A stretch of 55,006 nucleotides of DNA, from NCBI GenBank assembly GCA_021826025.1, contig JAKBBG010000003.1, forward strand, positions 1 to 55,006, written 5' to 3'. Every line of letters starts with the position of its first letter. Positions within the stretch are counted from its first letter, which is position 1. This DNA comes from Pseudomonadota bacterium (lineage in GTDB: Bacteria > Pseudomonadota > Gammaproteobacteria > Burkholderiales > Ferrovaceae). Both the position numbers and the translations under genes were made by a program. Under the pieces are notes generated by a model that was not told the origin of the DNA, searched no databases, and saw nothing but the letters and a program-made list of their open reading frames with translations. This document shows, in pieces, positions 32,163-49,496 of this stretch.

Positions 32163-33092
32163 CTAGCTTTGGGCAGGAAATTTCACTTTTTTCATCACGA
32201 TACCGATGGCGGCGGTACGGGTCTCGACGCCGAGCTTCTCAAAAATGTGTTCCACATGCTTGTCTATGGTACGGTGACTGCTTTCCAGGATCGTGCCGAT
32301 CTGCCGGTTGGTCTTGCCTTGCACCATCCAATAAACCACTTCCGCTTCCTTGATGGTCAAACTGAACCGCTGCTGCAGCGAGCGGACGATGATCGCCTCG
32401 CTTTCCTCCCGCATCAGCACCAGAACTTCATCCGTTTGATCCAGCTCCTGAATCCGCCCGTGCAGCCGGGCCTCCTGTGTTTCCACCAGAATCGGAAATT
32501 CACGCCCTTCCCGGGCAGCCTGAAGGGCGCGTTGCAGCCAGCGCATGAATTCCGGAGGCAACGCTGGCTCGTAATGAACCCCGAAATACTTGGTGAACAG
32601 TTCCCTCCCGAGCGGAGTCGCCCAGAGGATCTCCCCGCGGGAACGATTCACGGTCAGGCTTGCCTGGTCAAGGCGGTCCAGGGCGCCATGGGCTTGCCTG
32701 ACTTGGCGCGCCCGCTGCAAATGGGCCGCAATCCGGGCAAGAACCTCCTGCGGCTTGATGGGCTTAATCACGTAATCCGTGACGCCATGTGAAAAGGCGC
32801 TCACGACATTTTCCGTATCTGAAAGTCCTGTAAGAAAGATGATCGGGATGTTCTGCGTGGCCACATCCTTCTTCAAGTGTTGCGCCACCTGGAACCCGTC
32901 GATGCCCGGCATCAGCGCATCCAGCAAAATGATATCCGGGCGATTGCGCTGAACGGACTGCAACGCGGACTCGCCGCTGGTCGCGACCAAAACCGTGTAG
33001 CCAGCCTCGTCCAGGGCGTCGTGCAGCAGCGCGAGGTTTTCAGGCGTGTCATCCACCACCAAAACCACCTCTGATGCCGGATTGAACTTCAT
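32163..33092 (-). CDS. LuxR-type response regulator of the amide/urea operon
   Basis: This 309-residue protein has a receiver domain (VLVVDDTPENLALL, phosphoacceptor in IILLDALMPG, Lys in VIKPIKP), a middle region of about 110 residues that I cannot assign, and a LuxR helix-turn-helix (LTIKEAEVVYWMVQGKTN, RTIDKHVEHIFEKLG). It overlaps the end of the transporter-kinase gene by four bases and is its probable partner. I chose the ATG at 33092; the frame continues upstream into the kinase gene. It is the last gene of the 18-gene cluster. Confidence 0.88.
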   Translation of the reverse strand: MKFNPASEVVLVVDDTPENLALLHDALDEAGYTVLVATSGESALQSVQRNRPDIILLDALMPGIDGFQVAQHLKKDVATQNIPIIFLTGLSDTENVVSAFSHGVTDYVIKPIKPQEVLARIAAHLQRARQVRQAHGALDRLDQASLTVNRSRGEILWATPLGRELFTKYFGVHYEPALPPEFMRWLQRALQAAREGREFPILVETQEARLHGRIQELDQTDEVLVLMREESEAIIVRSLQQRFSLTIKEAEVVYWMVQGKTNRQIGTILESSHRTIDKHVEHIFEKLGVETRTAAIGIVMKKVKFPAQS

Positions 33093-36000
33093 AGCGCCAC
33101 CCGGGTTTGAGGGGCCTGCTTGAGCAGGAACCTCAGTTCTTCGAACTGAAACCTGCCGGTCAGGTTTCTTGCGGTATCGACAAACTCGCGGTAGTCGCTT
33201 CCGCACTCATGCAGGCGGTCCAGGGTCTGGACAATCCCCTTGAGATAGCCTGCTTCCGTATGCTGCCGCAGCTCCTCAATCCACTCCCGCGGCGGGTATG
33301 TCAGGGGCCCCTGCGCAACGGCGGGGACACTCGTTCGCGCTTCGTGAAAGATCCAGGACAACGCCATGCAGCGCCCGATGCTTTCCAGCAATTCGTTGAT
33401 GTTCACCGGCTTGGTTATGAACCGGTCCGAAGTGATGTTGGCGTCGTTGTCGGCGCCCTTTTCGAACGCATTGGCTGAAACAACCATCACTGGAATGTCG
33501 CGATGCTCCGTACGGCGCATGCGCCTGATCGTTTCCCATCCGTCGATCTCCGGCATGGCCAGATCGATCATCACGAGGTCGGGAGAAACCGCATCGAGAA
33601 GATCCAGGCATTCCTGTCCGCTGCAGGCTTCGAACATGTCAAACCCCAGCGGCGTCAGAAAACTGGAAATGACGCTGCGATCCAGGGGCTCGTTGTCGAC
33701 CACGAGGATCCTGCGCCGGCGGCCCTGGTAGCCCAGATAAACCCTGTCCTCGATCGCCTCGGCCGCCGCATGGCTGATCACGTGCGGCAAAAACAGGCGC
33801 AGCTTGAAAACCGTCCCTTTGCCTTCCGCGCTGTGGACCATGATGTCGCCGCCCATGAGGTCGATGAGCATTTTCGAGATGGTGAGCCCGAGCCCCGTCC
33901 CGCCGGAAACGTCGGAAGACTGGTTGGAACCCCGGGCGAACGGTTCGAAAATGCGCTCCAGGTCGGATGGCGGAATTCCCGGCCCAGTGTCGCCGACTTC
34001 TATCGTCGCGATCTCATTCTGATACTTGATGCCGAGAACGACCTGCCCTTCCCGGGTGAACTTGATGGCGTTGCCCACGATGTTGATTAGAATTTGCCTC
34101 AGGCGCCCGCCGTCCCCGCGAACTGTCACGGGCAAATCGGACAAGGCCTGGTATATGAAATCAAGGCCTTTGCTTTGCGCCTGCAATTTGAACATGCCCA
34201 CAATTTGCTGGACCAGTTCGCGAAACGGCAATGGCTTGATGTTCAGCTTCAGCTTTCCGCTTTCAATCCTGGCGATGTCCAGCGTTCCTTCGATCAGGGT
34301 CAGCAAGTGATCGCCGCTGCGTCGTATCACGCTGACCGCCTGCCTGCGATGGTCTGGAATGGCAGGATCCCCGTCCATGATTTGCGCATACCCCAGGATA
34401 CTGTTCAAAGGGGTGCGCAACTCGTGGCTGATGGACATGATGTACCTGCTTTTCGCCAGGTTTGCCATGTCAGCCGTCACTTTTGCGCTTTGCAGAAGCT
34501 GGTCCGTCTTTTTGTGGGAATTGATTTCCTGGATCAGCAGGCCGGTTTGCGATTTGGCTTCCATCAGCGCGACCTGACGGCTCTTGCTCACCAGAACGAG
34601 CCACCAGGCGACGATTCCCGCAATCACCAGCAGCCCGGAAAACAGCCGGATGTAAATGCCGCGGATGTAGTGGACCATTTCCCCGCTCCCAAGGTTGTTT
34701 GCGTAGACTTCCTGGTAGTAGAGCAATCCGAGCAGGGCGACCAAAATAAGGGAAAAGGACAGCAGCAGGACGATGTAGTGCCCCAGGCCGACGCGGAGAT
34801 AGTTGATCAGCTTCGGCGGCAGCAGCATGCTGACCCAGTCCATCATCTGGGCTGAAACCCTTGCCGAAGGTTTGCACTGGTCCTGGCACCGCACGTCCAA
34901 TGTGCAGCACAGGGAGCAGATCTTTCCCTGGTATGCGGGACAAAACGCCACGTCCTCCCGTTCAAAGTCATTCCCGCACACGGTGCAGGTGTGCCCAAGT
35001 CCGGGTTCCCCCAGGGAATCCGGCCCGCGCGCGATATAGAACTTGCCCTTGGTCCCGTAGGCAATCAGGGGGGACAGCACGAGCGGCAGCAGCAAGGACA
35101 CCAGGATCGCAAACGGCTGGATATCTTCGCCCATCACGCCAAGATAAATGAGAATCGCGATGCCGGCCGTGACGGTGACCGTAAAAAAACCCACGGGGTT
35201 GATGTCGTACAGATAGGCACGCTTGAATTCCACCGATTTGGGCGACAGGCCCAGCGGCTTGTTGATCACCAGATCGGTGAAAACCGCCATGATCCAGGGA
35301 ACGGCAATATTTGAAAACAGCTCCAGGACACGGTCCATGACCTGCAGCAGGTCCAATTCCATCAGCATCAATGCGATGACGATGTTGAAAATGACCCAAA
35401 CGACCCGCCCTGGATGGCTGTGGGTCAGCCTGGAGAAAAAATTGGACCAGGCGAGCGACCCCGCATAGGCATTGGTCACATTGATTTTCAGTTGCGACAG
35501 GATGATCAGGAGCGACGCAAAGGCGAGGATGACCCAATAGTTCGAGAACACATACTGATAGGCTATGAAATACAGGGCATTCGGGTTCAGGGTCTCGTTG
35601 AGTTCATACCCCATCCGCAGCGCCACATAGGCCAGGAGCATTCCTCCAAGGATTTTCAGTGAACTGAGGATCACCCATCCGGAGCCCCCAACCAGGACGC
35701 CGGCATACCAGGCATGGCGGTTTTCGGAAGTCTTTGCAGGCATGAAGCGCAGGTAATCCGCCTGCTCTCCCATCTGCGCGAGCAGAGGCAGCAACACCGT
35801 CAAGGCGATGCAAAACGTTTTCACATGGAAGCTGCCGCCGCCTCCGTCGATTCCGGTAAAGCGCCAGATGTCGTGAAACGTGACGTAATTCGACCCCAGC
35901 AGATAAATATACGGAAGCACCAGCAGAATGAGCCAAAAGGGCTGGGTGATGCTTTGAAAGCGGCTGATCGCCGTAACCCCTCTTGTGACAACCGGGATGA

Positions 36001-36484
36001 CGACGAGCGCACACAGAACGTATGCCCAGGACATACGGATATTGAAGGCCACATGCAAAGCAAAGGCCATGATGGCGGCTTCAAAAGCGAAAAAAATGAA
36101 GGTGAACGCCGCATAAATCAGCGAGGTGATGGTCGAGCCCAGATAGCCGAACCCGGATCCGCGGGTCAACAGATCCATGTCCAGGTTATACCGTGCGGAA
36201 TAGTAGCTGATGGGAAGGCTGACCAGAAACAGGATGATCCCCGAACAGAGGATGGCGTAAAAGGAATTGATGAAGCCGGAATGGATGAGCAGCGTCGCGC
36301 CAAGCGCTTCAAGCACCATGAAGGAAGACGTGCTGAACGCGGTATTGGCAACCTCGGCAATGCTCCATTTCCTGAAGCTTTCCGGGGCATAGCGCAGGGC
36401 ATAGTCTTCCAGGCTTTCGGTGGCGACCCAGGTGTTGTAGTCCCGCCGGATGTTAAAGACGCCTTGGGCTGAAAATTCGCTCAT
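33089..36484 (-). CDS. Hybrid histidine kinase fused to an NCS1-type transporter
   Basis: This 1131-residue protein combines several parts. Residues 1-485 form about twelve helices resembling NCS1 purine/cytosine permeases ([34 protein letters not shown]). A cytoplasmic Cys cluster follows at 500-537 (Cys500, 503, 515, 523, 526, 527, 533, 537), likely to bind zinc. Two more helices lie at about 568-590 and 612-632. HisKA carries His687 ([12 protein letters not shown]), then HATPase_c, a receiver domain (Asp974, Lys1025) and a helical tail. The start overlaps ureG by four bases. A transporter-like sensor for urea, amides or a related compound is inferred; whether it transports is unknown. Confidence 0.9.
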
Positions 36485-37092
36485 AACATGCCTGCGCGCT
36501 CGATGAACTGAACGATCTCTGCCAATCCGTGGCGGGTTTTCATGTTGCTGAACAAGAACGGCCGATCGCCCCGCATGCGTCTTGCATCCCGGTCCATCAC
36601 GTCAAGGGAAGCGCCGACATAGGGGGCAAGGTCGATTTTGTTGATGATCAGCAGGTCGGATTTCGTGATTCCCGGCCCCCCCTTTCTGGGGATCTTTTCC
36701 CCGGCCGCCACATCGATCACATACAGCGTCAAGTCTGAAAGTTCAGGGCTGAAGGTGGCGGCCAGGTTGTCCCCGCCGCTTTCCACGAAAATCACGTCGA
36801 GGTCCGAAAATCGTCGATTCAGCTGCTCGATGGCTTCCAGATTGATGCTGGCATCTTCGCGGATGGCCGTGTGCGGACACCCGCCGGTCTCGACGCCCAA
36901 TATATGGTCCGGGCTCAAGGCCGCATGCCGCACCAGGAATTGGGCGTCCTCCTCCGTGTAGATGTCGTTGGTGATCGCCGCCACGTGGTACTTATCCCGC
37001 AAGGCGATGCACAGTTCGAGGGTCAACGCTGTTTTTCCGGATCCTACCGGGCCGCCAATTCCCACACGAAGCGGCGAACGTTGGGTCATCAT
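36481..37092 (-). CDS. ureG: Urease accessory GTPase UreG
   Basis: This 203-residue protein has P-loop [10 protein letters not shown] near the start, then [31 protein letters not shown] with the nickel-binding CPH motif, and [10 protein letters not shown]. UreG delivers nickel to urease with UreD, UreE and UreF using GTP. It overlaps ureF by four bases and the transporter-kinase gene by four. Confidence 0.96.
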
Positions 37093-37817
37093 GATCGAAA
37101 TAGCCTCGTGTATTGTGTTTCGTGCAAGCAGGAAGCCAGGGCGTACCCTGGCATTGCATTCACCGCATCTTCAATCGAAGTGCTCAGGATGTCGTCGAGA
37201 TGCCGGCCAATCTGGCCGGACAATTCGATGAGCAGCCGCTGCCCCTCGCTCTGCCCCAATGGCACGCATTTCACTGCCGCCATGACCTGGTTTTCCAGCC
37301 AGGACCAGAGGTATCCCGTCACGGCCTCCTCCTCCGGCAGTTGCCAGTGATGCGCCAGATAGCTCCAGGCGCAAGGAAAGGTGACCTGCGTAGCCTGGTC
37401 CAGCGCTTCCGGCAATGGAACACCGATCTGCTTGAGCAGCTGTCTCATGGAAAATCCCATTTGCAAAGTCTCGGCACGCAACTCGACAGTGTCCCGGCTC
37501 GCCGCGAACGACTCGTCATGGTGCAGCGCCGATGCGGCATCTCCGGAGCGCCAGGCCCTCAGCATATGCACCAGGTACACTGCTTCGCAGCGCGCCATGC
37601 CGTCCCGCAACACATCTCCGATCCATTGACAAACCCCGGACGCGCCAACCACCTGGCCCCGTTCCACAACCCACTCCAACCCTTGCGAATAGCTGTATGC
37701 CCCTACAGGCAGGGCCGGGCTTGCCAGTTGCAGAAGCCTCAGCAGAACCCCTGCGCTAGCGGGTTTGCATGTCGTGAATTCGTGCTCCACGACCGACCCC
37801 TTCGAAACTATGCCCAT
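37089..37817 (-). CDS. ureF: Urease accessory protein UreF
   Basis: This 242-residue protein has the family start [20 protein letters not shown] and later [15 protein letters not shown]. UreF works with UreD and UreG in nickel insertion. The start is uncertain. ATG at 37817 overlaps ureE by 62 bases, an ATG at 37832 overlaps more, and a GTG at 37790 would overlap less. The conserved region begins near 37750, so all fit. Confidence 0.9.
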
Positions 37818-38253
37818 GGGAATGTCCCACATGCTTGCCGTAAGCCCCTGATTCGGGTTCAAACGGTGCCATGACCTCCGCCACCTCGAGGCCGAGCCCG
37901 CGCACCATGTCGGCCAGCACATGGTCATTGGGAAATCTCAGCCAGTCGGGATTTACTTCAAGGGCCACATGCCGGTTTCCCAAATGGTAGGCGGCCTTGA
38001 TCAGGCGCAGGGAATCTGTCGAACGGACTTCCATCACCGCTTCCAGAGCGGCCTTCACGGCGATGACGCGGCCATCCTGGGCGACAAGATGGTCGCCCCC
38101 CCGAAGCACCGTGCCCCGCTTGAGGAACAATCCGATTTCCTCTCCGGAATCCAGACGTGCCTGCAGCCGGTTTTTGCAGCGAAACTCGAATGCGAGCGTC
38201 AGGAATTCGGTTGCTTCACGTTCATGGGATGCCAACTGTTCAACCACGACCAT
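37756..38253 (-). CDS. ureE: Urease nickel chaperone UreE
   Basis: This 165-residue protein has UreE features such as EEIGLFLKRGTVLRGGDHLV, RLIKAAYHLGNRHV and a C-terminal His-rich tail ([11 protein letters not shown]) that binds nickel. The tail is short compared with the long poly-His tail of Klebsiella UreE. The start at 38253 is preferred to an upstream in-frame ATG inside ureC. Confidence 0.93.
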   Translation of the reverse strand: MVVVEQLASHEREATEFLTLAFEFRCKNRLQARLDSGEEIGLFLKRGTVLRGGDHLVAQDGRVIAVKAALEAVMEVRSTDSLRLIKAAYHLGNRHVALEVNPDWLRFPNDHVLADMVRGLGLEVAEVMAPFEPESGAYGKHVGHSHGHSFEGVGRGARIHDMQTR

Positions 38254-38260
38254 GGGAACC

Positions 38261-39967
38261 TCAGAACAGGAAATAGCGTTGGGCCATGGGCACAACAGCC
38301 AAAGGCTCGCAGGTCAGCAACTCGCCGTCTGCGCGAACCTCATAGGTTTCCGGATCGACCCGGACCTGGGGCAGGGCATCGTTCAATACCATGTCCGATT
38401 TCTGCAGATGCCGGGTATTTTTCACCGCGACCAATGGCTTTCCAAGGCCGAGGCCCCGCACCGATGCGTTGTCCAGGGCAGCCTGCGAAACGAATGTCAC
38501 GGACTTCCCCAATGCAAGGCCGAAGCTGCCGAACATCGGCCGCCCATGGACCGGTTGGGGCGTGGGAATGGAGGCATTGGGGTCCCCCATCAGCGCGTAG
38601 GCAATCATGCCCCCCTTGATGATGGTGGAAGGCTTCACCCCGAAAAATGCGGGCCGCCAGAGCACGAGGTCCGCCAACTTTCCCGCCTCGATGGAACCCA
38701 CTTCATGGCTGATGCCGTGGGTGATGGCCGGGTTGATGGTGTACTTGGCCAGGTACCGCTTGACCCGAAAATTGTCATTGCGCGCCGAATCTTCAGGCAG
38801 CCGGCCCCGTTGGCATTTCATCTTGTGGGCTGTCTGCCAGGTGCGAATGATCACTTCCCCAACCCTTCCCATGGCCTGGGAATCCGACGACATCATGGAA
38901 ATGGCGCCCATGTCCTGCAAAATATCCTCGGCGGCAATGGTCTCGCGCCGGATCCGCGACTCCGCGAAGGCCACATCTTCCGCAATGGCGGAATCCAGGT
39001 GGTGACAGACCATCAGCATGTCCAGATGCTCGTCGATCGTGTTGACGGTATAGGGTCTTGTGGGGTTGGTGGACGAGGGCAGCACGTTTTTCAGTCCTAC
39101 CGCCCGGATGATGTCCGGGGCATGCCCTCCGCCCGCGCCCTCCGTGTGGAACGTGTGGATCGTCCGCCCCTTGAACGCCCCCAGAGTGGCTTCCAGGAAG
39201 CCGGACTCATTGAGCGTGTCGGTGTGGATGGCCACCTGGACGTCATACAAATCCGCGACGGACAGGCAATTGTCGATGGCTGCCGGCGTGCTGCCCCAGT
39301 CCTCATGCAGCTTTAGCCCGATGGCCCCGGCCTTGATCTGCTCGATGGCAGGTTCTGGCAATGACACGTTCCCCTTCCCCATGAATCCCAGATTCATGGG
39401 GAAGGCTTCAGCGGCTTGAAGCATGCTGCCGATATGCCAGGGCCCGGGGGTGCAGGTGGTCGCAAACGTCCCGGTGGCAGGGCCGGTACCCCCGCCCAGC
39501 ATGGTGGTGATCCCGGAGCTCAAAGCCTCTTCGATCTGCTGGGGGCATATGAAATGGATGTGGCTGTCCACGCCGCCAGCCGTCACCAGCAGCCCTTCTC
39601 CGGCGACGATTTCGGTGGCTGCGCCGATCGGGAGCGTGACTCCCGGCTGTATGTCCGGGTTGCCGGCCTTTCCAATGCCCCAGATGCGTCCATCCTTGAT
39701 GGCCAGATCGGCTTTGATGATCCCGCTCACGGGGTCCAGGATCACGGCATTGGTGATGACGGTATCGGCGACTTCGCCGGCACTTCGCTGCGACTGGCCC
39801 ATGCCATCGCGAATGACCTTTCCCCCGCCAAACTTGACCTCCTCGCCGTAAACGGTCAGGTCCCTTTCAATCTCGATCCACAGTTCGGTATCAGCCAAAC
39901 GCAGCCGGTCACCTGCCGTCGGTCCAAACATTTCCGCATAGGTGCGCCGGGCCAGGGAGTTCGCCAT
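38261..39967 (-). CDS. ureC: Urease alpha subunit UreC
   Basis: This 568-residue catalytic subunit has metal ligands in [11 protein letters not shown], the carbamylated Lys in [10 protein letters not shown], and the flap motif [10 protein letters not shown] with the active-site Cys-His. Urease hydrolyses urea to ammonia and carbamate at a dinickel site. The start at 39967 ([20 protein letters not shown]) matches other UreC proteins. It is seven bases before ureE and five after hupE/ureJ. Confidence 0.97.
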
Positions 39968-39972
39968 GGAGG

Positions 39973-40563
39973 TCAGCTTCCCAGCGCAACCAATGCGAGG
40001 CCCAGTACGCCGGCCCCTGCCCACCGGGTCCTGCCCGTCGAGCGACGGACCCATTGCCCCATCAATGCACCAAGGCACAGCAGCAGACATGTCGCCAGCA
40101 TGAACCCCGCGACATAGCGCAACGGGGCCGCCGTATCCGGGATTTCAAGGCCGTGGGCGAGGCCGTGCCAGGCGGCAAACCCTGCCGCGGCGAGCATGCG
40201 CACCAGAATGGAGCATGGCTTTGCCCACAATAGCAGCGTCCCCGTGGCCAGTACGCTCGCCATCAGGGTGGATTCCACCCAGGCGGGAGCGGCTCCCAGG
40301 ATGCCAATGACGCCGCCGCCCAGCATCCCGGCCAGGAAGCAGGCCAGCACCGCGGCGCGCTGGCGGAGGGAGGACGCCAATGAGGCCCAGATTCCCATGG
40401 AAACCATCCCGACCACGTGGTCGAGGCCGCTGAAAGGATGGGACCACCCTTCCCAAAACCCGCCTCCTGCGTGGCCCGGGTGGGCAAACGCAAATCCGGG
40501 CAGCATGCAGGCCACGGCGCAGACCAGGGCATACACGATTTTCCGCTGACGACGCTGTTTCAT
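39973..40563 (-). CDS. ureJ: HupE/UreJ-family nickel permease
   Basis: This 196-residue protein has a signal-like N-terminus (cleavage near AFAHP), about six helices and the metal motif [12 protein letters not shown] (HX5DH), typical of HupE/UreJ. It probably supplies nickel for urease. It lies between ureB and ureC, overlapping ureB by four bases. Confidence 0.9.
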
Positions 40564-40865
40564 AAGTCCCCCTGGATTTTTCCCTGAAATCCGAACACCC
40601 GCCGGCTTCCCGCAAAGGCCACCAGCTCTACGGTCCGCTCCTGCCCGGGCTCGAAGCGTACGGCCGTTCCAGCGGCAATGTTCAGTCGCATTCCCCTGGC
40701 CTGCTCACGCTCGAAAAGAAGCGACTCGTTGGCTTCGTAAAAATGGTAGTGGGATCCCACCTGAATGGGCCGATCACCACGATTGGCCACCCGCAGTGCG
40801 ATCGTGTCGCGATGCGCGTTCAACGGTATTTCTTCTGCCTCGAGCAACCATTCCCCGGGTATCAT
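40560..40865 (-). CDS. ureB: Urease beta subunit UreB
   Basis: This 101-residue protein starts [20 protein letters not shown] and contains [20 protein letters not shown] and [13 protein letters not shown], as in bacterial UreB. It packs against UreA and UreC and has no catalytic residues. Separate ureA and ureB genes are the usual bacterial form. Confidence 0.96.
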
Positions 40866-40873
40866 CGTGGCAC

Positions 40874-41176
40874 CTATGCAATGGGCTGATGGACAGTCAC
40901 CAATTTGGTGCCATCCGGGAATGTGGCTTCGACCTGCACGTCCGGTATCATTTCGGGCACCCCTTCCATGACATCATTCCGGCCCAGCAAACCCGCCCCA
41001 TAGCCCATGAGTTCTGCCACCGTCCTTCCGTCCCGGGCCCCTTCCAGCAAGGCTGCCGTGATGAAAGCGACGGCTTCCGGATAATTCAGTTTCAGGCCAC
41101 GCGCCTTTCGCCTTTCAGCCAGCAAGGCGGCGGCAAATATCAACAACTTGTCCTTTTCTCGGGGGCTCAAATCCAT
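40874..41176 (-). CDS. ureA: Urease gamma subunit UreA
   Basis: This 100-residue protein starts [20 protein letters not shown] and contains [21 protein letters not shown], as in UreA. I chose the ATG at 41176 because it gives the standard N-terminus; an in-frame ATG at 41185 overlaps ureD. ureB follows after eight bases. Confidence 0.96.
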
Positions 41177-41181
41177 ACCTG

Positions 41182-42018
41182 TCATGTCCTCCAGATCCGC
41201 GGGTTTGCAGCCGCAATGCCCAACAGCCGGGGCCTCAGCACGTGCCAGATCGCGGTAAACCACTGCTTGGCCGTTTCCGACGAGTCCCCCAGAATACGAG
41301 CAATAAATATGCCATCCATTAGCGTGATGCCCGTCTGCGCACTGTCACAAACAGGGATCGCGCGGCAGTCTGCCACCGTCGTTTTGTTCAATGCGTCTGC
41401 GCAAGCCACCAGGGTTCCCGTGACCGTGTGCCCTGCCAGCCCGTTGAGGCTGCGCATCACGGGGGCCCGGGCGTCATAGCGCGCACGATCCAGAAAGGCC
41501 AGACGACCGCCGCGGCGGATGCTCAGGGAGGAACGTGCCTGGCCATGGGAAAAGGATTCTCCCGAATGACGCCGGCCAAAACACTGGATATCCCACCCCA
41601 CCAGGGTGGCTCCGGGGTCAAGCTCCACTTCCATGACCGTATCCGCCCAGCACTGGTCGAAGAAAATCGTTTCCTGCGGAAGCCATTCGACCGCCGCGTG
41701 CGCGCCCACGTGCAGCCGGATCTCCTGACGCGCCCGCCGATGATCGCTGCGGTACCATTTGCTCGCCCCCGGATTGGTGAACAGGACATGGGCCCTTTCT
41801 CCCAGCTGCGCGCAGATCCGCAGGTGGTCGCCCCCCACGATTCCTCCGGGAGGGTGCAGCAGCAGCGTATGGCATACGCCGCCTCCTTCGGGATACAAGG
41901 CCTTCTGCACCCTGAGCGGACCGCTATGGGATTTGCGACGCAGCACCGTCCCCCGGGCCGTGCGGTCGTAGCCCAGGGATAGGCTGGCATGCCAGCCGCA
42001 ATCCGCCTCCCCCGGCAT
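41182..42018 (-). CDS. ureD: Urease accessory protein UreD (UreH)
   Basis: This 278-residue protein has the family features [21 protein letters not shown] and [11 protein letters not shown]. UreD is the scaffold that binds apo-urease with UreF and UreG. The start at 42018 shares a base with the amiE stop (TAATG), indicating coupled translation; a further in-frame ATG at 42060 lies within amiE. Confidence 0.92.
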
Positions 42019-43052
42019 TACCCCGTGGCACCGGAATTGGGAATTCCGGGAACCGGACATTCCTCGGTCCCCACCATTGAGCGCGTCAGAGATTCCGCCT
42101 GGCGCCGCGCCCCTTCCGGATCGTTGATCCACTGTTTATAAAAGTCGTAGGGACAGGCGGCGATTCCGGATGCCCCTTCACCGGAATTGATGAGACCGGT
42201 ATAGCCCCGGTGCAGCAGCTTGAACAAATGGTTTTGAGACTGGCCGTGGCGGCGAAAATCCCGAATCAGCTGCTTGGAAAGGGCCGCATACTGGACCCCG
42301 TTTTCCTCTTCCCCGCATTCCCCCAAGGTACGGCCATCGAAACCGATGATCGCCGAATGGCCGAAATAGGAATAGACCCCATCAAATCCGGAAGCGTTGG
42401 CGACAGCCACATAGGTGTTGTTGGCGAACGCCATGGCTTTGGAAATGAGGATTTGCTGCTCTTTTGCCGGATACATGTACCCCTGGCAGCGCACGATCAG
42501 CTCGGCTCCCTTCATGGCGCAGTCGCGCCATATTTCCGGGTAGTTGCCGTCGTCGCAGATGATCAGGCTGATCTTCAGCCCCTTCGGGCCCTCCGAAACG
42601 TAGGTCTTCTCGCCGGGATACCATCCTTCAATCGGAGTCCAGGGCATGATTTTCCGGTATTTCTGGACGATCTCGCCCCGGCTGTTCATGAGGATCAGGG
42701 TGTTGTAGGGCGCCTTGCGGGGATGCTGTTCATGGCGTTCTCCTGTCAGTGAAAACACGCCCCAGACATTGGCCATGCGGCAGGCTTCCGCAAAGATTTC
42801 AGTTTCCTGGCCTGGGATGGATGCCGCCGTGTCGAGCATTTCCTGGGGGTCATACATGATGCCGTGGGTGCTGTATTCCGGAAAGATGACCAGATCCATT
42901 CCCGGCAACCCCGCCTTCATTCCCAGTACCATGCGGGCGATGGCACGGGCGTTTTCAATCACCTGCGCCTTGGTGTGTAGGCGGGGCATCTTGTAGTTCA
43001 CCACTGCCACGCCCACAGTGTCATTACTGCTTGAAATATCTCCATGTATCAT
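42018..43052 (-). CDS. amiE: Aliphatic amidase AmiE
   Basis: This 344-residue nitrilase-superfamily enzyme is very close to Pseudomonas AmiE, starting [20 protein letters not shown]. The catalytic Glu-Lys-Glu-Cys set is in [21 protein letters not shown] and CDDGNYPE. It converts short-chain amides to carboxylates and ammonia. AmiF formamidase is related, but the N- and C-termini look like AmiE. The start at 43052 matches the known N-terminus. No amiC/amiR/amiS genes are nearby, so regulation differs from Pseudomonas. Confidence 0.94.
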
Positions 43053-43072: not shown

Positions 43073-43390
43073 TTAATGGCTGATCATCCAGGGGCGCTTG
43101 TGGGCAAACCCTTTGGGCGCTTTTCCTGCCGAACTTCCGCCGCCGCAGCAGGAGCATCCCTGCCCGTGCCGTGACACGCGCTTCCGGGCCGGTTCATGCG
43201 CCGACCTTTCATTCGCGGCCATGGCCTTTCTGCGCTGGGACGGCATGTCCGCAATCTGCGGGGCAGCCACTGGCATGCGTGGCGACAAGGCACCGCAGGA
43301 CTTGCAATGCTGCTCTGCATCGCGCTCTCCGATGCGCAACAGCCGGTCAAAAGGACCGCAGTTCGGGCAGACGAAGTCGTAGGTCGGCAT
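43073..43390 (-). CDS. fmdB: FmdB-family zinc-ribbon protein
   Basis: This 105-residue protein starts [20 protein letters not shown], the FmdB zinc ribbon with Cys pairs CPNC and CKSC, and ends with another Cys-rich motif (GCSCCGGG). FmdB was named as a possible regulator of formamidase in Methylophilus. The gene lies one base after fmdA. Confidence 0.92.
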
Positions 43391-43391
43391 G

Positions 43392-44624
43392 TCACACCTT
43401 GTCGTAGGCAATGGGCATGCTGGGACCACCCTGGATGAACTGGGAAGGGCCTGAAGCGTTCGGCCGGATGTCGAACTCGAAAATCCCGGTGGGCAACCAC
43501 AACGTTGCGCAGGAGTTCGGGATATCCACCACGCCGCTGATGTGCCCCTGCACGGGCGCAGTCCCCAGAATGGAATAGGCCTGGGACTTGGAATAGCCGA
43601 ACTTGGCCAGATATTCGATGGCATTGAGGCAGGCCTGGCGGTAGGCCACGTTGACGTCCAGGTAATGCTGCTTGCCGGCCTCGTCCACGGAAATCCCTTC
43701 AAAGATCAGGTAATCGTCGTAGTGCGGCGTGATCGGACTGGGCCTGAAGATGGGGTTTTTGATCCCGTACTTCGCCATCCCCCCCTTGATGAGTTCGACT
43801 TTCATGTGGACCCAGCCCGCCATTTCGATGGCGCCGCAGAACGTGATTTCGCCGTCTCCCTGGCTGAAATGAAGATCGCCGACAGACAGCCCGCCTCCTT
43901 TCACATACACCGGGAAATAGATCTTCGAACCGCGCGACAGGTCCTTGATGTCGCAGTTGCCGCCATGCTCCCGCGGAGGAACCGTACGGGCTCCCGTCAT
44001 GGCGGCGGCCTCCTTTGCCCCTCCCTTGAGCTTACCCATATGGGCAGTGGACGGGTACGGCGGATTGGCAAGCGGAGGAACCCGGCCGGGATTGGTGTCA
44101 ATCAGGGCCTGCTCGCGGCTGTTCCACTGATCCAGCAATGCATGGCTTGGCAGGCAGCCGATCAGGCCGGGATGGATCAGGCCGGCATACCGGACACCGG
44201 GCACATGGCGGCTCTTGGTGAACAGGCCCTGAAAGTCCCAGATCGACTTCTGCGCATGGGGAAAATGGTCAGTCAGGAACCCTCCCCCGTTCTGCTTTGA
44301 GAAAAAGCCGTTGAATCCCCAGAGGCTGTCGCTTTTTGCGCCGATATCGAGGAGGTCGACCACCAGGAGGTCACCGGGTTCGGCGCCATTCACGCCGACG
44401 GGCCCCGAGAGAAAGTGAACAATGGACAAGTCGATGTCACGCACATCCTCGGCGCTGTCATTGTTCTTGATGAATCCGCCAGTCCAGTCGTATGTTTCCA
44501 GGATGAAATCATCGCCCGGCTTGACCCAGCAGGCCATGGGAATGTCCGGATGCCAGCGGTTGTGAATCATTTCGTTGGAATAGGGCGACTCGTCGAGATT
44601 CACTTTGATAAGGGTATCGGTCAT
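43392..44624 (-). CDS. fmdA: Formamidase FmdA
   Basis: This 410-residue protein of the acetamidase/formamidase family starts TLIKVNLDESPYSNEMIHNR. It contains HPGLIGCLPSHALL, the metal-site region REHGGNCDIKDL and SVGDLHFSQGDGEI. It hydrolyses formamide to formate and ammonia. No formate dehydrogenase is in the window. The gene is in the middle of the amide/urea cluster, between urtE and fmdB. Confidence 0.95.
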   Translation of the reverse strand: MTDTLIKVNLDESPYSNEMIHNRWHPDIPMACWVKPGDDFILETYDWTGGFIKNNDSAEDVRDIDLSIVHFLSGPVGVNGAEPGDLLVVDLLDIGAKSDSLWGFNGFFSKQNGGGFLTDHFPHAQKSIWDFQGLFTKSRHVPGVRYAGLIHPGLIGCLPSHALLDQWNSREQALIDTNPGRVPPLANPPYPSTAHMGKLKGGAKEAAAMTGARTVPPREHGGNCDIKDLSRGSKIYFPVYVKGGGLSVGDLHFSQGDGEITFCGAIEMAGWVHMKVELIKGGMAKYGIKNPIFRPSPITPHYDDYLIFEGISVDEAGKQHYLDVNVAYRQACLNAIEYLAKFGYSKSQAYSILGTAPVQGHISGVVDIPNSCATLWLPTGIFEFDIRPNASGPSQFIQGGPSMPIAYDKV

Positions 44625-44642: not shown

Positions 44643-45347
44643 TTAGACGGACAAATACTTGCTGATGACGCTCTCGTCCACGTTGGACCGGACGTCCTGA
44701 TAGACGAAGCGCCCTTTTTCGATCACGCAGAACCGGTCTGCAATTTCCATGGTGAAACTCAAGACCTGCTCGGACACGATGATGGTCAACCCCTTCGTAT
44801 TCCGTATTTCCTTCAGGGTTTTTGCGATGTCCTTGATGATCGACGGCTGGATTCCTTCCGTGGGCTCGTCAAGCAGAAGGACTTTGGGGTTGGTCACCAG
44901 CGCGCGCGCGATGGCCAGCTGCTGCTGCTGCCCTCCGGAAAGATTCCCTCCCTTGCGCGAACGCATGTCGTAGAGCACGGGAAACAGGGCATAGATGTCG
45001 TCCGGAACCTTGTTGTTCCGAACAGCGGGCGGCAGCCCCGTCTGGATGTTCTCCAGCACGGTCATGTTTGAAAAAATCATCCGCCCCTGCGGGACGTAAG
45101 CGATGCCGTTTCTCACCCGGTTGAACGACTCCATGCCATCGAGCGACTGGCCGTCCACCTTCACTACTCCGGACATGGACGGGATGATTCCCATCAGGGT
45201 CTTGAAGAAAGTCGTTTTTCCCATGCCGTTGCGCCCCATCACGGCAACGATTTCCTGCTGGCCGACGTCCAGGGATAGGCCATTGATGACCTTGCTTTGC
45301 CCATAGCCGGCATCCAGGCCGGCGACTGAAAACATGGCGTGTTCCAT
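44643..45347 (-). CDS. urtE: Urea/amide ABC transporter ATPase UrtE
   Basis: This 234-residue ABC ATPase has Walker A GRNGMGKTTF, signature LSGGQQQQLAIARAL and Walker B LLLDEPTEGIQPSI. The latter sequence is a mark of UrtE/LivF-type proteins linked to urea uptake. It pairs with UrtD to power import. The start could also be the second Met (MFSVAG). Confidence 0.92.
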   Translation of the reverse strand: MEHAMFSVAGLDAGYGQSKVINGLSLDVGQQEIVAVMGRNGMGKTTFFKTLMGIIPSMSGVVKVDGQSLDGMESFNRVRNGIAYVPQGRMIFSNMTVLENIQTGLPPAVRNNKVPDDIYALFPVLYDMRSRKGGNLSGGQQQQLAIARALVTNPKVLLLDEPTEGIQPSIIKDIAKTLKEIRNTKGLTIIVSEQVLSFTMEIADRFCVIEKGRFVYQDVRSNVDESVISKYLSV

Positions 45348-45357
45348 GACGTCTCCT

Positions 45358-46098
45358 TCAATGACCCAAATAAACTTCGACGACCTTGGGGTTGGATTGC
45401 ACTGACTCCATGCTCCCCTCCGCCAGCAGCTTCCCCTGGTGCAACACAGTGACCTTGTGCGCGATGCGCTTCACGAACTCCATGTCGTGTTCGATGACGA
45501 TCAGGGACCTCCCCTTGGCGATCTTGTTGAGGAGCTCTGCCGTCTTTTCCCGCTCCACCACGCTCATTCCGGCCACGGGCTCATCGAGCATCAGCAGCGC
45601 AGGGTCCTGGATCAGCAGCATGCCGATTTCGAGCCACTGCTTCTGCCCGTGGCTGAGCAATCCGGATTGGGTGTTGAGGTGCTCTTCAAGAAAAATCATC
45701 CGTGCCGTGTCGATGATCTTCTGCTCGACCTCCGCCGTGCGCCTGAACATCAGGGACCCAAGCACGCTCCGGCCTTCCGGGTAGGAGATTTCCAGGTTTT
45801 CCAGGACGGTCAGGTTTTCGTAGATGGACGGGGTCTGGAATTTCCGGCCGACGCCAAGTTGGACCAGCTTGTATTCCGGCAACCGGGTCAGCTCGATCCC
45901 TTTGAATTCGATCGATCCGGACGTGGCCTTTGTCTTGCCGCAGATCAGGTCGAGCACGGTGGTCTTTCCGGCTCCGTTTGGTCCGATGATCACCCGCAAT
46001 TCGTTCTCTTCAACGTACAGGTTGAGGTCGTCCACGGCCTTGAATCCGTCAAATGACACCGTCAGGCCTTCGATGGAAAGTGCGATCTTGTTTGACAT
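45358..46098 (-). CDS. urtD: Urea/amide ABC transporter ATPase UrtD
   Basis: This 246-residue LivG-like ATPase has Walker A GPNGAGKTTV, LSHGQKQWLEIGMLL as the signature (SHGQ rather than SGGQ, usual in UrtD), and LLMLDEPVAGMS. It lies one base after urtC and ten before urtE. Confidence 0.93.
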   Translation of the reverse strand: MSNKIALSIEGLTVSFDGFKAVDDLNLYVEENELRVIIGPNGAGKTTVLDLICGKTKATSGSIEFKGIELTRLPEYKLVQLGVGRKFQTPSIYENLTVLENLEISYPEGRSVLGSLMFRRTAEVEQKIIDTARMIFLEEHLNTQSGLLSHGQKQWLEIGMLLIQDPALLMLDEPVAGMSVVEREKTAELLNKIAKGRSLIVIEHDMEFVKRIAHKVTVLHQGKLLAEGSMESVQSNPKVVEVYLGH

Positions 46099-46099
46099 T

Positions 46100-47239
46100 T
46101 CATGCCCCCGCGTTTTCGATGCTTGGCTTGGAAGATGCGGGCTTCCGCCTCGCTTTCGTCAGGAGCTGGCGCAGTTTGGGTTCCAGGTGAACCTTGTAGA
46201 GGCCGGACAGCCCTTCCGGAAACACCATCACCACGCCGATGAACAGCAACCCCATGAAGAACAGCCACAGCGTTGGAAACGATTCCGAGAACGCCGTTTT
46301 CCCGTAATTCACCAGAAGCGCCCCGTAAATGGCGCCGACAAGGGACATCCGTCCCCCGATGGCTGCAAAAATCACCATTTCTATGGAAGGAACGATGCCG
46401 ATGATCGAGGGGGACATGAATCCGACCTGCAAGGTGAACATCGCCCCGCCGATGGCGGATATCACGGCGGCCAGGGAGAAGACGAACACCTTGAAGTTGG
46501 CCACGTCATACCCGGAAAATCGCACGCGGTCCTCCTTGTCCCGCAGTGCCAGGAGCAGTCGCCCGAGCTTTGTGGAGAGAACCAGCTTGCTCAGCACAAT
46601 GGACAGCAGCAGCAGCGCGCCGTTGACGAAGTAGAGGACGTACTTTGCGGAGTCCGTGTTGATGTTCCAGCCATGCAGGGTCTTGAGGTCGGTAATGCCG
46701 TTGATTCCGCCCGTGAATCCCTGCTGGCCGACCACGAGAATGGTGACGATCGCGGCGATCGCCTGGGTGATGATGGAAAAGTACACTCCGCTGACCCGCC
46801 GCTTGAACATCGAGACGCCGATGATGTATGCCACCACGGCCGGGATGACGACAATGGCAAGCAACGTGAAGGCAAAGCTGTGGAACGGCTCCCAAAAGGC
46901 CGGGAGATGCGTCACCTGGTTCCAGTCCATGAAGTCCGGAATCCCCGGCGTCGTCTGGTGGGCGGTGCTGACAGGATCAGACGCCTCCAGCTTGAGGAAC
47001 ATGGCCATGCAGTAGCCGCCGATCCCGAAAAAGACCCCTTGCCCGAGACTCAATATCCCTCCATATCCCCATAACATGACCAGGCCTACCGCACAGTAGG
47101 CGAACGTCAGGTATTTCCCGACCAGGTTCAGCCTGAAAATGTCCAGACCCAGGGGGAACACCACGAAGATGATTGCCGCAATCACCAGCAGGTCCATCGC
47201 CCCTGCCTTGCCACCCAATATTTTTCCAAGCGCTTTCAT
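46100..47239 (-). CDS. urtC: Urea/amide ABC transporter permease UrtC
   Basis: This 379-residue LivM-like membrane protein has about ten helices and the family motifs GYGGILSLGQGVFFGIGGYC and GGTN-like GFTGGINGITDL. It forms the channel with UrtB. Confidence 0.92.
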   Translation of the reverse strand: MKALGKILGGKAGAMDLLVIAAIIFVVFPLGLDIFRLNLVGKYLTFAYCAVGLVMLWGYGGILSLGQGVFFGIGGYCMAMFLKLEASDPVSTAHQTTPGIPDFMDWNQVTHLPAFWEPFHSFAFTLLAIVVIPAVVAYIIGVSMFKRRVSGVYFSIITQAIAAIVTILVVGQQGFTGGINGITDLKTLHGWNINTDSAKYVLYFVNGALLLLSIVLSKLVLSTKLGRLLLALRDKEDRVRFSGYDVANFKVFVFSLAAVISAIGGAMFTLQVGFMSPSIIGIVPSIEMVIFAAIGGRMSLVGAIYGALLVNYGKTAFSESFPTLWLFFMGLLFIGVVMVFPEGLSGLYKVHLEPKLRQLLTKARRKPASSKPSIENAGA

Positions 47240-47257
47240 GACGTTTCTCCCTTCTTT

Positions 47258-48181
47258 CTATCGACGAACTTTGCTTCTCAACAACCCTTCCGGACGCATC
47301 ATCAGGATTGCGATGATGGTGAGCAGGGTCACTACCTTCCCCATTGCGTTGGTGAGAAAGAAGGTGAGGATGGACTGCGCCTGCGCAATCGAAAACGCGG
47401 ATGCGATGGTCCCGAAAAGGCTGGCCGTTCCGCCAAAGACAACGACGAGAAAGGTGTCGACGATATAGAGGGAGCCGCTGGTAGGCCCTGTGGACGCAAT
47501 GGTCGTGAAGCAGGCTCCGGCCACGCCGGCAATGCCGCAACCGATGGCGAAAGTGACCCGGTCGACCATTTTCGTGTTGATTCCGACAGCGCCCGCCATG
47601 ACGCGGTTTTGGGTCGTTGCGCGGACCTTGAGCCCCCATTTCGACTTGAACAGGAACAGGCCGACCAGGGCGGTCACAAGAATGGACATGGCCATCACGA
47701 ACAGCCCATTGAGCGGAATATCGATGCTGGGAGTCGGTTTCCAGGATCCCATCAGCCAGTCAGGCAGGGTTGCGCTGACTTCCCGCGCCCCGAACGACGA
47801 ACGGAATATCTGCTGCAGGATCAGGCTCAACCCCCAGGTGGCCAGCAGCGTGTCGAGCGGACGCTTGTAGAGGTGGCGTATCAGCAGGTATTCAAGCAGG
47901 TACCCCGCACCGAAGGCAATCACGAAGGACGCCAGGATGGCCACGATGAAGTAGTAGGGCATGAAGGAAGGCAGGTAGGTTTCCGTGAATCTCGACGTCA
48001 GGTAAATCGTGTAGGCTCCGATGGTCATGAATTCGCCATGGGCCATGTTGATGACTCCCATCTGACCGAATATGATGGCCAGCCCCAAGGCCATGAGCAG
48101 CAGCACGCTGAACAGGCTGAGCCCGGAAAAGCCCTGCATGACCACAATCGAGAAAAGGTCTGATAAGGAGTAACCGTCCAT
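47258..48181 (-). CDS. urtB: Urea/amide ABC transporter permease UrtB
   Basis: This 307-residue LivH-like membrane protein has FGQMGVINMAHGEFMTIGAY and GCGIAGVAGACFTT. Many proteobacterial UrtB proteins carry a long periplasmic N-terminal extension; this one lacks it and is closer in size to LivH or the FmdE amide permease. That leaves urea or short-chain amides as substrate. Confidence 0.9.
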   Translation of the reverse strand: MDGYSLSDLFSIVVMQGFSGLSLFSVLLLMALGLAIIFGQMGVINMAHGEFMTIGAYTIYLTSRFTETYLPSFMPYYFIVAILASFVIAFGAGYLLEYLLIRHLYKRPLDTLLATWGLSLILQQIFRSSFGAREVSATLPDWLMGSWKPTPSIDIPLNGLFVMAMSILVTALVGLFLFKSKWGLKVRATTQNRVMAGAVGINTKMVDRVTFAIGCGIAGVAGACFTTIASTGPTSGSLYIVDTFLVVVFGGTASLFGTIASAFSIAQAQSILTFFLTNAMGKVVTLLTIIAILMMRPEGLLRSKVRR

Positions 48182-48213
48182 GTTTGCTCTCCACAGTAAA
48201 AGAAGTGGCTAAA

Positions 48214-48241
48214 CGGGGCCGCTCGCCGACAAGCGGCCCCG
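48214..48241 (-). promoter_or_regulatory. Stem-loop between urtA and urtB
   Basis: CGGGGCCGCT and AGCGGCCCCG form a ten-base-pair stem with an eight-base loop in the only sizeable gap of the operon (67 bases). It could protect urtA message or reduce read-through, giving more binding protein than permease. Confidence 0.6.
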
Positions 48242-48248
48242 GCATTTC

Positions 48249-49496
48249 CTAGTACCCTTTCGGATAGGGATTTGGCGTGATGTAGTCAGAGGTGTAGACG
48301 ATCTTGGCCTGTCCGTCGGATTCCCATTCCCCGATGCGCAGCTTGGTTTTCAGGTGATGGTTCGGTTCGAGGTAGATGAGCCCTTCCGGAGCATCGAAAG
48401 TGATTTTTCCGCTCTCTTCCGCCTTGACCACCTTGTCGGTATCAAAGCTGCCTGCCATTTCCACGGCTTTCTTCCAAAGCCACGGGCCTTCGTACGCTGC
48501 CTGCGTCACGTCGCCGATCGGCGCGTTGGCTCCCCATTTCGCGTGGAACTGCGAGACGAACTTCTTGTTTTCCGGGGTATCGAGGGATTCGAAATATTTC
48601 ATGGCGGAGTAGAAACCGACCAGGTTTTCGCCGCCGATCCCCTTCGCCTCATCTTCCGTCACCGACAAGGTCAGAAGTGTCTGGTTTCCGCCATTGATGC
48701 CGGCGGCCTTGAGCTGCTTGAACCAGGAGACATTGGAACCGCCCACCACGGCCGCGTAGATGACATCGGGCTTTTTCAGGCGGATCTTGTTGATGGTGGA
48801 ACCGAATTCCGTGCTGCCAAGCGCTGCATATTCCTCGCCGACGACCTTTCCGTGAAGCACGGTTTCAATGTACTTGCGGGCAAGTTTCATGGTGGTTCTG
48901 GGCCAGATGTAATCAGACCCGATCAGGTAGAAAGTCTTTGCATTCTTCGTCTTGGCAACCCAGTCGAGCCCTGCGAAAACCTGTTGTGTCGCTTCCTGGC
49001 CTGTGTAGACGACGTTCTTGGACTGCTCCAGCCCCTCGTAAAAGGTGGGGTAGTAGAGCAGGCCGTTGTCCCGTTCCAGCACGGGGAGGACGGCCTTGCG
49101 GGAAGCGGAAGTCCAGCAGCCGAATATGGCCGCCACATGATCCGACTCCAGAAGCTTCTTTGCCTTTTCCGCGAACGTCGGCCAGTCTGAAGCCCCGTCT
49201 TCCTGGATGACGCGAATCTTCCTGCCCAGCACCCCGCCCATGGCGTTGATCTGGCTGATGGCCAGCTGCTCGGCTTCAATGGCGCCCGTTTCCGAAATGG
49301 CCATCGTTCCGGTCGAAGAGTGCAGCTGCCCGACCACGACTTCCTTGTCGGTCACTGCGATGTTGGATTCCGCCAGCGAAGGCTGGACTGCGAACAGCCC
49401 GTTCGCGACCACCCCCGCCAAAACACTTTTCGCGAGCAACCGCTTGAGTTTGCCGGAGCCAGAACAGCTGGCGTGGCGATGTGAAAGAAATGACAT
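48249..49496 (-). CDS. urtA: Urea/amide-binding periplasmic protein UrtA (FmdD-like)
   Basis: This 415-residue protein has a long N-region before a signal peptide hydrophobic core (cleavage near PSLAES). A type I periplasmic-binding domain follows: VVVGQLHSSTGTMAISETG, AAIFGCWTSASRKAVLPV and LLYYPTFYEGLEQSKN. These blocks are typical of UrtA and FmdD/AmiC-like proteins. It is the first gene of the operon and divergent from a porin. Confidence 0.94.
   Translation of the reverse strand: MSFLSHRHASCSGSGKLKRLLAKSVLAGVVANGLFAVQPSLAESNIAVTDKEVVVGQLHSSTGTMAISETGAIEAEQLAISQINAMGGVLGRKIRVIQEDGASDWPTFAEKAKKLLESDHVAAIFGCWTSASRKAVLPVLERDNGLLYYPTFYEGLEQSKNVVYTGQEATQQVFAGLDWVAKTKNAKTFYLIGSDYIWPRTTMKLARKYIETVLHGKVVGEEYAALGSTEFGSTINKIRLKKPDVIYAAVVGGSNVSWFKQLKAAGINGGNQTLLTLSVTEDEAKGIGGENLVGFYSAMKYFESLDTPENKKFVSQFHAKWGANAPIGDVTQAAYEGPWLWKKAVEMAGSFDTDKVVKAEESGKITFDAPEGLIYLEPNHHLKTKLRIGEWESDGQAKIVYTSDYITPNPYPKGY

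Follow-up and report, generated by a model that had tools for sequence, protein, structure and literature searches.

A 55,006-nt stretch of contig JAKBBG010000003.1 from a Pseudomonadota bacterium of the Ferrovaceae (this whole stretch is called the window) encodes a protein that is probably a urea/short-amide sensor kinase derived from a permease. I found that its gene is a single uninterrupted open reading frame (ORF) of 1131 amino acid residues on the minus strand, in which an NCS1-like permease domain is joined to a module of eight Cys residues, two further helices, and a hybrid histidine kinase (Table 1). The gene lies within a tight run of urea and amide utilization genes and directly precedes a response regulator gene.

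It had been predicted from the letters of the window that a 12-helix permease, eight Cys residues, two helices, a kinase, a receiver, and a tail form one protein, and the intact ORF bears this layout out (residue numbers are those of the window protein). Pfam matches in the kinase half are HisKA (678-743), HATPase_c (790-899), and Response_reg (926-1036), and with His687 and Asp974 assigned by motif, all parts of a hybrid histidine kinase are present. Residues 1-645 match no Pfam family above the cut-off, and in the Pfam search of the window protein neither PAS nor any other cytoplasmic sensor domain of known type was detected. Is the fusion real? The source genome is in 102 contigs, and a frameshift, a chimera, or an assembly error could have joined two genes, as the original prediction had itself conceded. 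A pattern scan of contigs yielded at least 593 stretches, of which at least 588 encode a relative of residues 1-645 (tblastn, E <= 1e-3), and the best 80 of these relatives (L009-L088) made up the first locus set. No such error was found; the same complete single ORF is present in 73 of the 80 best loci, while six are cut off by a contig end and one (L056) is disrupted. It is also one annotated gene on sequenced plasmids. Since the complete ORF arrangement is identical in 73 of the 80 best loci, the fusion is no chance join or frameshift, and I count this explanation as already refuted.

The genes run on one strand in the order urtABCDE-fmdA-fmdB-amiE-ureD-ureA-ureB-ureJ-ureC-ureE-ureF-ureG-HK-RR (HK, histidine kinase; RR, response regulator), spanning 49496 (urtA) to 32163 (regulator), with intergenic gaps of 67 bp or less. 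Thus, the urea/amide operon that had been predicted around the kinase was confirmed. The ureG gene overlaps with the HK gene and the HK gene with the RR gene by 4 bp each, in the arrangement of translational coupling. Among the ure genes from ureD to ureF, ureJ was named by Pfam, and the others by annotated relatives and gene order. The window UrtA scores 485 bits on the UrtA model, just below the cut-off of 492.75.

How widespread is the fusion, and what lies beside it? A family match was found in 50 of 300 sampled genomes of the order (E <= 1e-10) and in 18 of 369 class and 55 of 398 phylum genomes (E <= 1e-3); the three genome sets overlap, and the class and phylum matches include a few weak or fragmentary ones and some without a kinase. 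In a plasmid collection, 577 records match, 340 of them from Klebsiella, and in 501 a single place spans 80% or more of the protein. With only the permease half as query, 525 records match (342 from Klebsiella), kinase-free copies included. The second locus set comprises 66 stretches (L148-L213) from the sampled genomes of the order and class, and leaves out the window itself and two contig-end fragments (G164 and G337); among the 66, L195 and L211 hold only a kinase-free copy. Relatives of known urea/amide proteins served as queries in the search for neighbours within about 9-10 kb. In the first set, urt, ure, fmdA, or ami genes are found beside 63 of the 80 loci (urt 21, ure 58, fmdA 7, and ami 8), and in the second set beside 51 of the 66 (urt 41, ure 19, fmdA 30, and ami 13). 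It had been feared that homologues would stand mainly beside unrelated pathways, and these counts show that this is not so. A related response regulator is present in 65 of the 80 and 58 of the 66 loci. Moreover, UrtA-type proteins occur in 47 of the 50 order genomes with a family match versus 71 of the 250 without (best E <= 1e-100, counted by hand over the 300 genomes; Fisher p 7e-19, a value that ignores kinship).

Individual records illustrate the arrangement. The HK gene is divergent from urtABCDE-formamidase in a Klebsiella plasmid, where a regulator frame absent from the gene list of the record follows the kinase, and also in Burkholderia vietnamiensis and Chelatococcus plasmids. In an Azospirillum plasmid it is divergent from urt-fmdA-fmdB, with amiE. 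Novosphingobium has the HK gene after ureDABCEFG-ureJ, with urt also near, while urease genes adjoin it in Mitsuaria and in Polaromonas sp. JS666 (L064), and urt genes in Thioclava. Shinella has urt genes on one side of the HK gene and hydantoinase/oxoprolinase genes about 2 kb off on the other side. In Methylovirgula, the kinase, the regulator, a kinase-free permease, fmdA, and amiE stand together. Two further inspected records carry no annotation. Some records seem to be wrongly assigned. L068 is a contig with a betaproteobacterial kinase-urease locus in a metagenome-assembled genome named Akkermansia muciniphila, which is probably contamination. L142 (CAKLQH020000001), labelled Acinetobacter phage MD-2021a, carries bacterial chromosome genes (katE and amino acid ABC transporters) and looks mislabelled. 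The plasmid-labelled records L141 (NZ_CP104448) and L228 (NZ_CP129771) look like whole or partial chromosomes (4.09 Mb; dnaG and rpoD).

I found that the permease also exists without a kinase. Twelve kinase-free rows were compared, including two nearly identical Acinetobacter copies. In the Klebsiella pneumoniae record L228, called a plasmid but with dnaG and rpoD, the last gene of the urease cluster (L228:7980-9587) encodes an NCS1-like permease annotated as a cytosine permease; an IS110-type gene occupies the expected place of ureC. This permease belongs to the same permease clade as the window sensor and has a tail with four Cys residues, but it lacks a kinase and has Asp and Phe at the positions of Leu58 and Glu59 of the window protein. 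A kinase-free permease likewise ends ureDABCEFG in G576 (L211), stands beside ure in Acinetobacter ursingii and beside or near fmdA in Moraxella and Tsukamurella, and is found together with the kinase, fmdA, and amiE in G560. In Acinetobacter, one is divergent from the kinase gene. The kinase-free L195 shows no urea/amide gene on its 8-kb contig. A profile of the sensors matches that of the kinase-free permeases over 532 columns (E 1e-172). In the tree, the 12 kinase-free rows group together (SH-aLRT 99); the root is unsure, so that either the sensor or the permease may have come first. Excerpts of PMC4222082 describe adjacent-numbered genes of Mycobacterium smegmatis, msmeg_3402 (putative cytosine permease) and msmeg_3403 (formamidase), for which loss of glnR lowered the level under nitrogen starvation (wild type 7.8-fold and 9.3-fold above the mutant); msmeg_3402 may be a member of the kinase-free clade. 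Since kinase-free relatives lie in urease and formamidase clusters, urea or a short amide is the likeliest ligand of the window protein.

The input block is also found on other outputs. The unit of permease, Cys module, and two helices is joined to PAS-PAS-HisKA-HATPase (L132), to PAS-GGDEF-EAL (L136:1-3429, in G435), and to a kinase without a receiver (L123). This swapping among outputs fits what a sensor input should show. In the case of the G435 PAS-GGDEF-EAL fusion, the module may steer c-di-GMP too.

Which residues distinguish sensors from permeases? Compared were 167 distinct fused proteins, the window protein included, and 16 rows without a kinase match (12 kinase-free, two with other outputs, and two cut or broken). 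Residues E135, Q237, E240, Q241, D243, K333, N335, N338, and Y340 are invariant in all 167 and all 16. The fused proteins differ from the 12 kinase-free rows by fixed residues at positions 54 (Ser versus Ala), 55 (Phe versus Tyr), 136 (Ala versus Gly), 173 (Ile versus Leu), 341 (Ala versus Ser), and 412 (Gly versus Lys). Position 58 is Leu in 155 of the 167 fused proteins (Asp appears in none of the counts shown) and Asp in all 12 kinase-free rows. Position 59 is Glu in every fused protein, and Phe (10) or Gln (2) in the kinase-free rows. Four of the eight differing positions (54, 55, 58, and 59) are clustered where helix 1 is broken.

Residues 1-645 were modelled by AlphaFold2 with 52 sequences (mean pLDDT 76, pTM 0.78). 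The model predicts 12 membrane helices, counted by eye, with helix 1 broken near residue 55. The Cys segment is of low confidence (pLDDT 53-65 per block over residues 481-550), and helices 566-595 and 601-644 are predicted after it. In a Foldseek search against solved structures, CodB and Mhp1 took ranks 1 to 5 (E 3e-8 to 1e-5), followed by SiaT (4e-5). VIA gave CodB a Z score of 33.0 (397 residues aligned, rmsd 3.5) and three Mhp1 entries 29.6, 27.8, and 26.1; the alanine symporter AgcS, at 26.8, stands above the last of them. CodB is therefore distinct, and Mhp1 less so, because AgcS scores among the Mhp1 entries. According to the model, the permease half has the LeuT-type 12-helix fold, with the NCS1 proteins CodB and Mhp1 as its nearest solved relatives, and in this respect the NCS1 fold proposed originally was supported. 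Searches of the PDB by sequence gave no link of the window protein to NCS1 structures, and no PF02133 (NCS1) proteins were found in the source genome itself. PF02133 is matched by two of 11 kinase-free relatives, the one from K. pneumoniae with 37.7 bits. With the sequence routes to NCS1 having failed, the fold and the kinase-free relatives carry the assignment. I therefore speak of an NCS1-like clade and do not file the window protein as a canonical NCS1 member.

The predicted pocket seems to differ from that of NCS1 transporters. In a motif alignment to which hhalign assigns a very low probability, one gap decides whether the invariant Lys333 is placed opposite Ser312 or Thr313 of Mhp1. I take these two to be the positions of the hydroxyl groups that bind Na+ (the Na2 site). 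The substitution of Lys333 for an Na2 hydroxyl residue is a lead only. In the same way, Phe127/131 weakly align with the stacking Trp of NCS1 transmembrane helix 3 (TM3), and Leu234, which is Leu in 156 of the 167 fused proteins, with the TM6 aromatic residue. For CodB, the residues described in parts of PMC9379551 were used; there, the NCS1 Na2 site is formed at the break of helix 1 together with helix 8. A Lys is also reported in the Na2 site of CbrA, in excerpts of PMC13022988. The permease half of the window protein further differs from CodB and Mhp1 in being unseen by Pfam and joined to a Cys module and a kinase.

I propose the following mechanism. The permease-like half would share an ancestor with the kinase-free permeases of urease and formamidase clusters, would have lost transport, and may bind urea or a small amide (formamide or acetamide) in the pocket of the LeuT fold. 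Opening and closing of the fold would shift the last two helices and thereby set the autophosphorylation of His687. The phosphate may then pass to Asp974 and on to the LuxR-type regulator encoded next, directly or via an unseen Hpt protein. The regulator would control the urt, fmd, ami, and ure genes, which are probably switched on upon ligand binding. The Cys module would most likely hold one or two zinc ions and stiffen the link between the permease and the membrane helices. Of this picture, the calculations bear out the architecture, the predicted fold, the conservation, the operon, the recurrence beside urea/amide genes, and the swapping of the module, while the ligand, the direction of control, the loss of transport, and the zinc are inferred.

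All 52 aligned relatives have Cys at the same eight positions (500, 503, 515, 523, 526, 527, 533, and 537), and a whole-protein search found the pattern in all 167 distinct fused proteins. In alignment A4, which was selected by this pattern, the invariance arises by construction and is not evidence. In 13 kinase-free rows, two have all eight Cys residues (L197 and L233), eight have a form with four (CxxC...CxLC), and three have none, one of them being cut short. Since Cys residues are found on kinase-free permeases, the module is no less a part of the permease than of the kinase; the extra four go mainly with the sensors. Urease needs nickel, and it had been suggested that the module relays a signal from the transporter to the kinase or senses the metal for urease. 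Could it sense redox state or a metal (nickel, zinc, or Fe-S) and gate the kinase, allowing urease and the amidases to be made only when metal is available? Its invariance, its place directly before the last two helices, and the ure genes near 58 of the 80 first-set loci speak for this. In the second set, however, ure is near in only 19 of the 66 loci, and 32 of the 66 have other urea/amide genes without ure; the Cys residues are kept, also where an inspected stretch has formamidase and urt genes without urease. As the module is also on permeases and in clusters that lack urease, "nickel for urease" is unlikely, and the relay is weakened by the same kinase-free copies. I regard a metal- or redox-sensing module as improbable. 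A putative structural, zinc-binding role is most likely, and it is the simpler reading.

Several observations weigh against a permease-derived urea/amide sensor. No urea/amide neighbour was found for 17 of the 80 and 15 of the 66 loci, some because of contig ends; the inspected Tistrella and Acinetobacter stretches have no urea/amide gene, and neither do the neighbourhoods of the Arthrobacter and Streptomyces kinase-free copies. The 15 second-set loci represent 14 genomes, of which 12 were tested (all but G259 and G351); in favour of the sensor, urease alpha exceeds the cut-off elsewhere in the genome in eight, UrtA in seven, and at least one of the two in nine. In G061, G068, and G435, neither does. 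The family frames of G061 and G068 are longer (1408 and 1417 residues), and both family copies of G435 have other outputs. In 26 of the 32 loci without urea/amide neighbours, three groups of shared frames (25, 8, and 8 loci) were found, which by position are apparently kinases, the regulator, and a shadow frame. Gene neighbourhood is in any case a sign of co-regulation, not of the ligand. On the side of the fold, PF02133 matches none of the 52 aligned relatives, no family was found for residues 1-498 of the window protein, and an hhalign comparison with one canonical NCS1 protein failed, so that sequence alone gives no tie to NCS1. Lastly, the transporter domain of CbrA is reported, in parts of PMC9100948, to be not essential for signal perception; by this precedent, the permease half of the window protein may not be the sensor.

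This last point leads to an explanation in which the permease half imports urea or amides and does no more for the kinase than tether it, and the kinase senses cytoplasmic ammonium, glutamine, or the nitrogen state. The SLC5 domain of CbrA alone takes up histidine, as stated in a passage of PMC13022988, and the sensors have the same core residues as the kinase-free permeases. This explanation would leave the signal to the kinase half, in which no known cytoplasmic sensor domain was detected, and it does not sit easily with the permease-Cys-helix module staying one unit on very different outputs or with the TM1 differences between sensors and permeases. In addition, many clusters have their own Urt transporter (41 of the 66 loci, though only 21 of the 80). 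I consider the importer unlikely, but worth keeping in mind. The ligand could also be allantoin, a hydantoin, cyanate, or a nucleobase, with the urea/amide genes merely downstream of that signal. Characterized NCS1 proteins carry nucleobases, hydantoins, and allantoin (excerpts of PMC9379551 and PMC11633122), some kinase-free relatives are annotated as allantoin or cytosine permeases, and hydantoinase/oxoprolinase genes lie near the Shinella kinase. Relatives of these Shinella hydantoinase genes were found in none of the 146 loci (the search did not extend to allantoinase or cytosine deaminase), and the recurrent neighbours are urt, ure, fmd, and ami. The apparent replacement of the TM3 Trp by Phe and of the TM6 aromatic residue by Leu, although weakly aligned, also speaks against a classical NCS1 ligand. 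Such a ligand is quite improbable. Of the inputs named in the original prediction, urea and amides are the likeliest, and hydantoin, with its genes near one copy, is improbable. A permease-derived sensor of urea or short amides remains the reading that I prefer.

Transporter-kinase fusions are already known, namely CbrA, CrbS, RpuS, and Ks-Amt5. According to excerpts of PMC9100948, CbrA, CrbS, and RpuS are SLC5/STAC kinases in which a LeuT-fold transporter is joined to a kinase and whose target is a transport or utilization operon; CrbS and RpuS are hybrid kinases with an adjoining LuxR-type regulator. The window protein resembles them in these points, but has an NCS1-like permease, and the eight-Cys module and two helices appear to replace STAC and PAS. 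It has no Pfam SLC5 match, solved SLC5-type proteins (such as SiaT and NIS) rank below NCS1 in Foldseek, and nothing in Pfam exceeds the cut-off at the STAC position, where the Cys module and the two helices are found. Its family is also tied to urea/amide genes and has close kinase-free relatives. Ks-Amt5 of Kuenenia, as described in parts of PMC5764959, is a transporter domain turned into a receptor for a nitrogen compound and joined to a kinase; it no longer transports and has acquired a new binding site. It differs in its Amt fold, trimeric state, and ammonium ligand, and those parts mention no Cys module or urea operon. Pfam Amt has no match in the whole window protein at E <= 10, and the predicted fold is of the LeuT type. 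By analogy, Ks-Amt5 is the closest tested precedent and CbrA the contrary one.

No report of an NCS1-kinase fusion was found in the open-licence literature among the matches listed. Two papers on Klebsiella plasmid urea clusters contain no occurrence of "two-component" or "histidine kinase" (PMC13060141) and of "two-component" or "sensor" (PMC5506382), and one on a Pseudomonas fmd-urt cluster (PMC13209695) none of "histidine kinase" or "two-component". The available parts of an Azoarcus olearius RNA-seq study (PMC8467165), a paper on an S-component transceptor (PMC11109136), PMC8472584, and PMC13390362 hold nothing that bears directly on the protein. GrtK, an ammonia sensor kinase of Burkholderia glumae, was rejected as a relative; it has a six-helix PilS-type domain, according to an excerpt of PMC12918730.

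Other genes of the window may be mentioned. A PAS-GGDEF-EAL gene (29179-32049) lies 113 bp past the regulator and may or may not be in the same regulon. A porin-like gene (49763-50956) is divergent from urtA, and its relatives recur near several urea/amide clusters; it is fmdC-like, a name given by analogy. Further off, a large outer-membrane-porin-like protein (25223-27529), which presumably resembles MtrB/PioB, adjoins a protein with four CxxCH motifs (27623-28219), which I take to be NapC/NirT-like. These two are possible extracellular electron transfer genes.

Table 1. Features of the sensor kinase gene and of its operon in the window
Feature	Position	Strand	Basis
NCS1-like permease/eight-Cys/two-helix/hybrid histidine kinase gene	33089..36484	-	ORF, 1131 aa
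Permease-like domain, residues 1-486, 12 helices, LeuT fold	35027..36484	-	Predicted model, nearest CodB and Mhp1
Eight-Cys module, residues 498-540	34865..34993	-	Conservation in relatives
Two further helices, residues 566-644, second extending toward kinase	34553..34789	-	AlphaFold2 model
HisKA, predicted phospho-acceptor His687 in SHELRTP	34256..34453	-	Pfam and motif
HATPase_c	33788..34117	-	Pfam
Receiver domain, predicted phospho-Asp974	33377..33709	-	Pfam and motif
C-terminal tail, without Pfam match	33092..33376	-	Pfam search
Response regulator, receiver and LuxR-type helix-turn-helix	32163..33092	-	Pfam; start overlaps kinase stop (ATGA)
ureG	36481..37092	-	Stop overlaps kinase start (ATGA)
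ureD, ureA, ureB, ureJ, ureC, ureE, ureF (ureD upstream)	37089..42018	-	Relatives and order
amiE, aliphatic amidase	42018..43052	-	705 bits vs NCBIfam cut-off 427
fmdB-type zinc-ribbon protein	43073..43390	-	Name from annotated relatives
fmdA, formamidase	43392..44624	-	761 bits vs NCBIfam cut-off 500
urtE, urtD, urtC, urtB, urtA, urea/amide ABC transporter (urtA upstream)	44643..49496	-	

A broader picture is conceivable, and I offer it tentatively. The unnamed NCS1-like clade may consist of true urea/short-amide permeases, including the one at the end of the K. pneumoniae cluster, and of related receptors. A change at the TM1 break (Asp58 with Phe or Gln59 in permeases, Leu58 with Glu59 in sensors), together with the Na2-site Lys, might have turned transport into a ligand-gated signal, and the permease-Cys-two-helix block might be a general plug-in sensor for hybrid kinases, PAS kinases, and c-di-GMP enzymes. 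For the biology of these bacteria, the window protein is likely a dedicated regulator of urea/amide use in many proteobacteria, and the last gene of the K. pneumoniae urease cluster is a candidate urea permease. For transceptor research, the family provides permeases and receptors that are close relatives and differ at few fixed positions, and the step from transporter to sensor is therefore testable by residue swaps.

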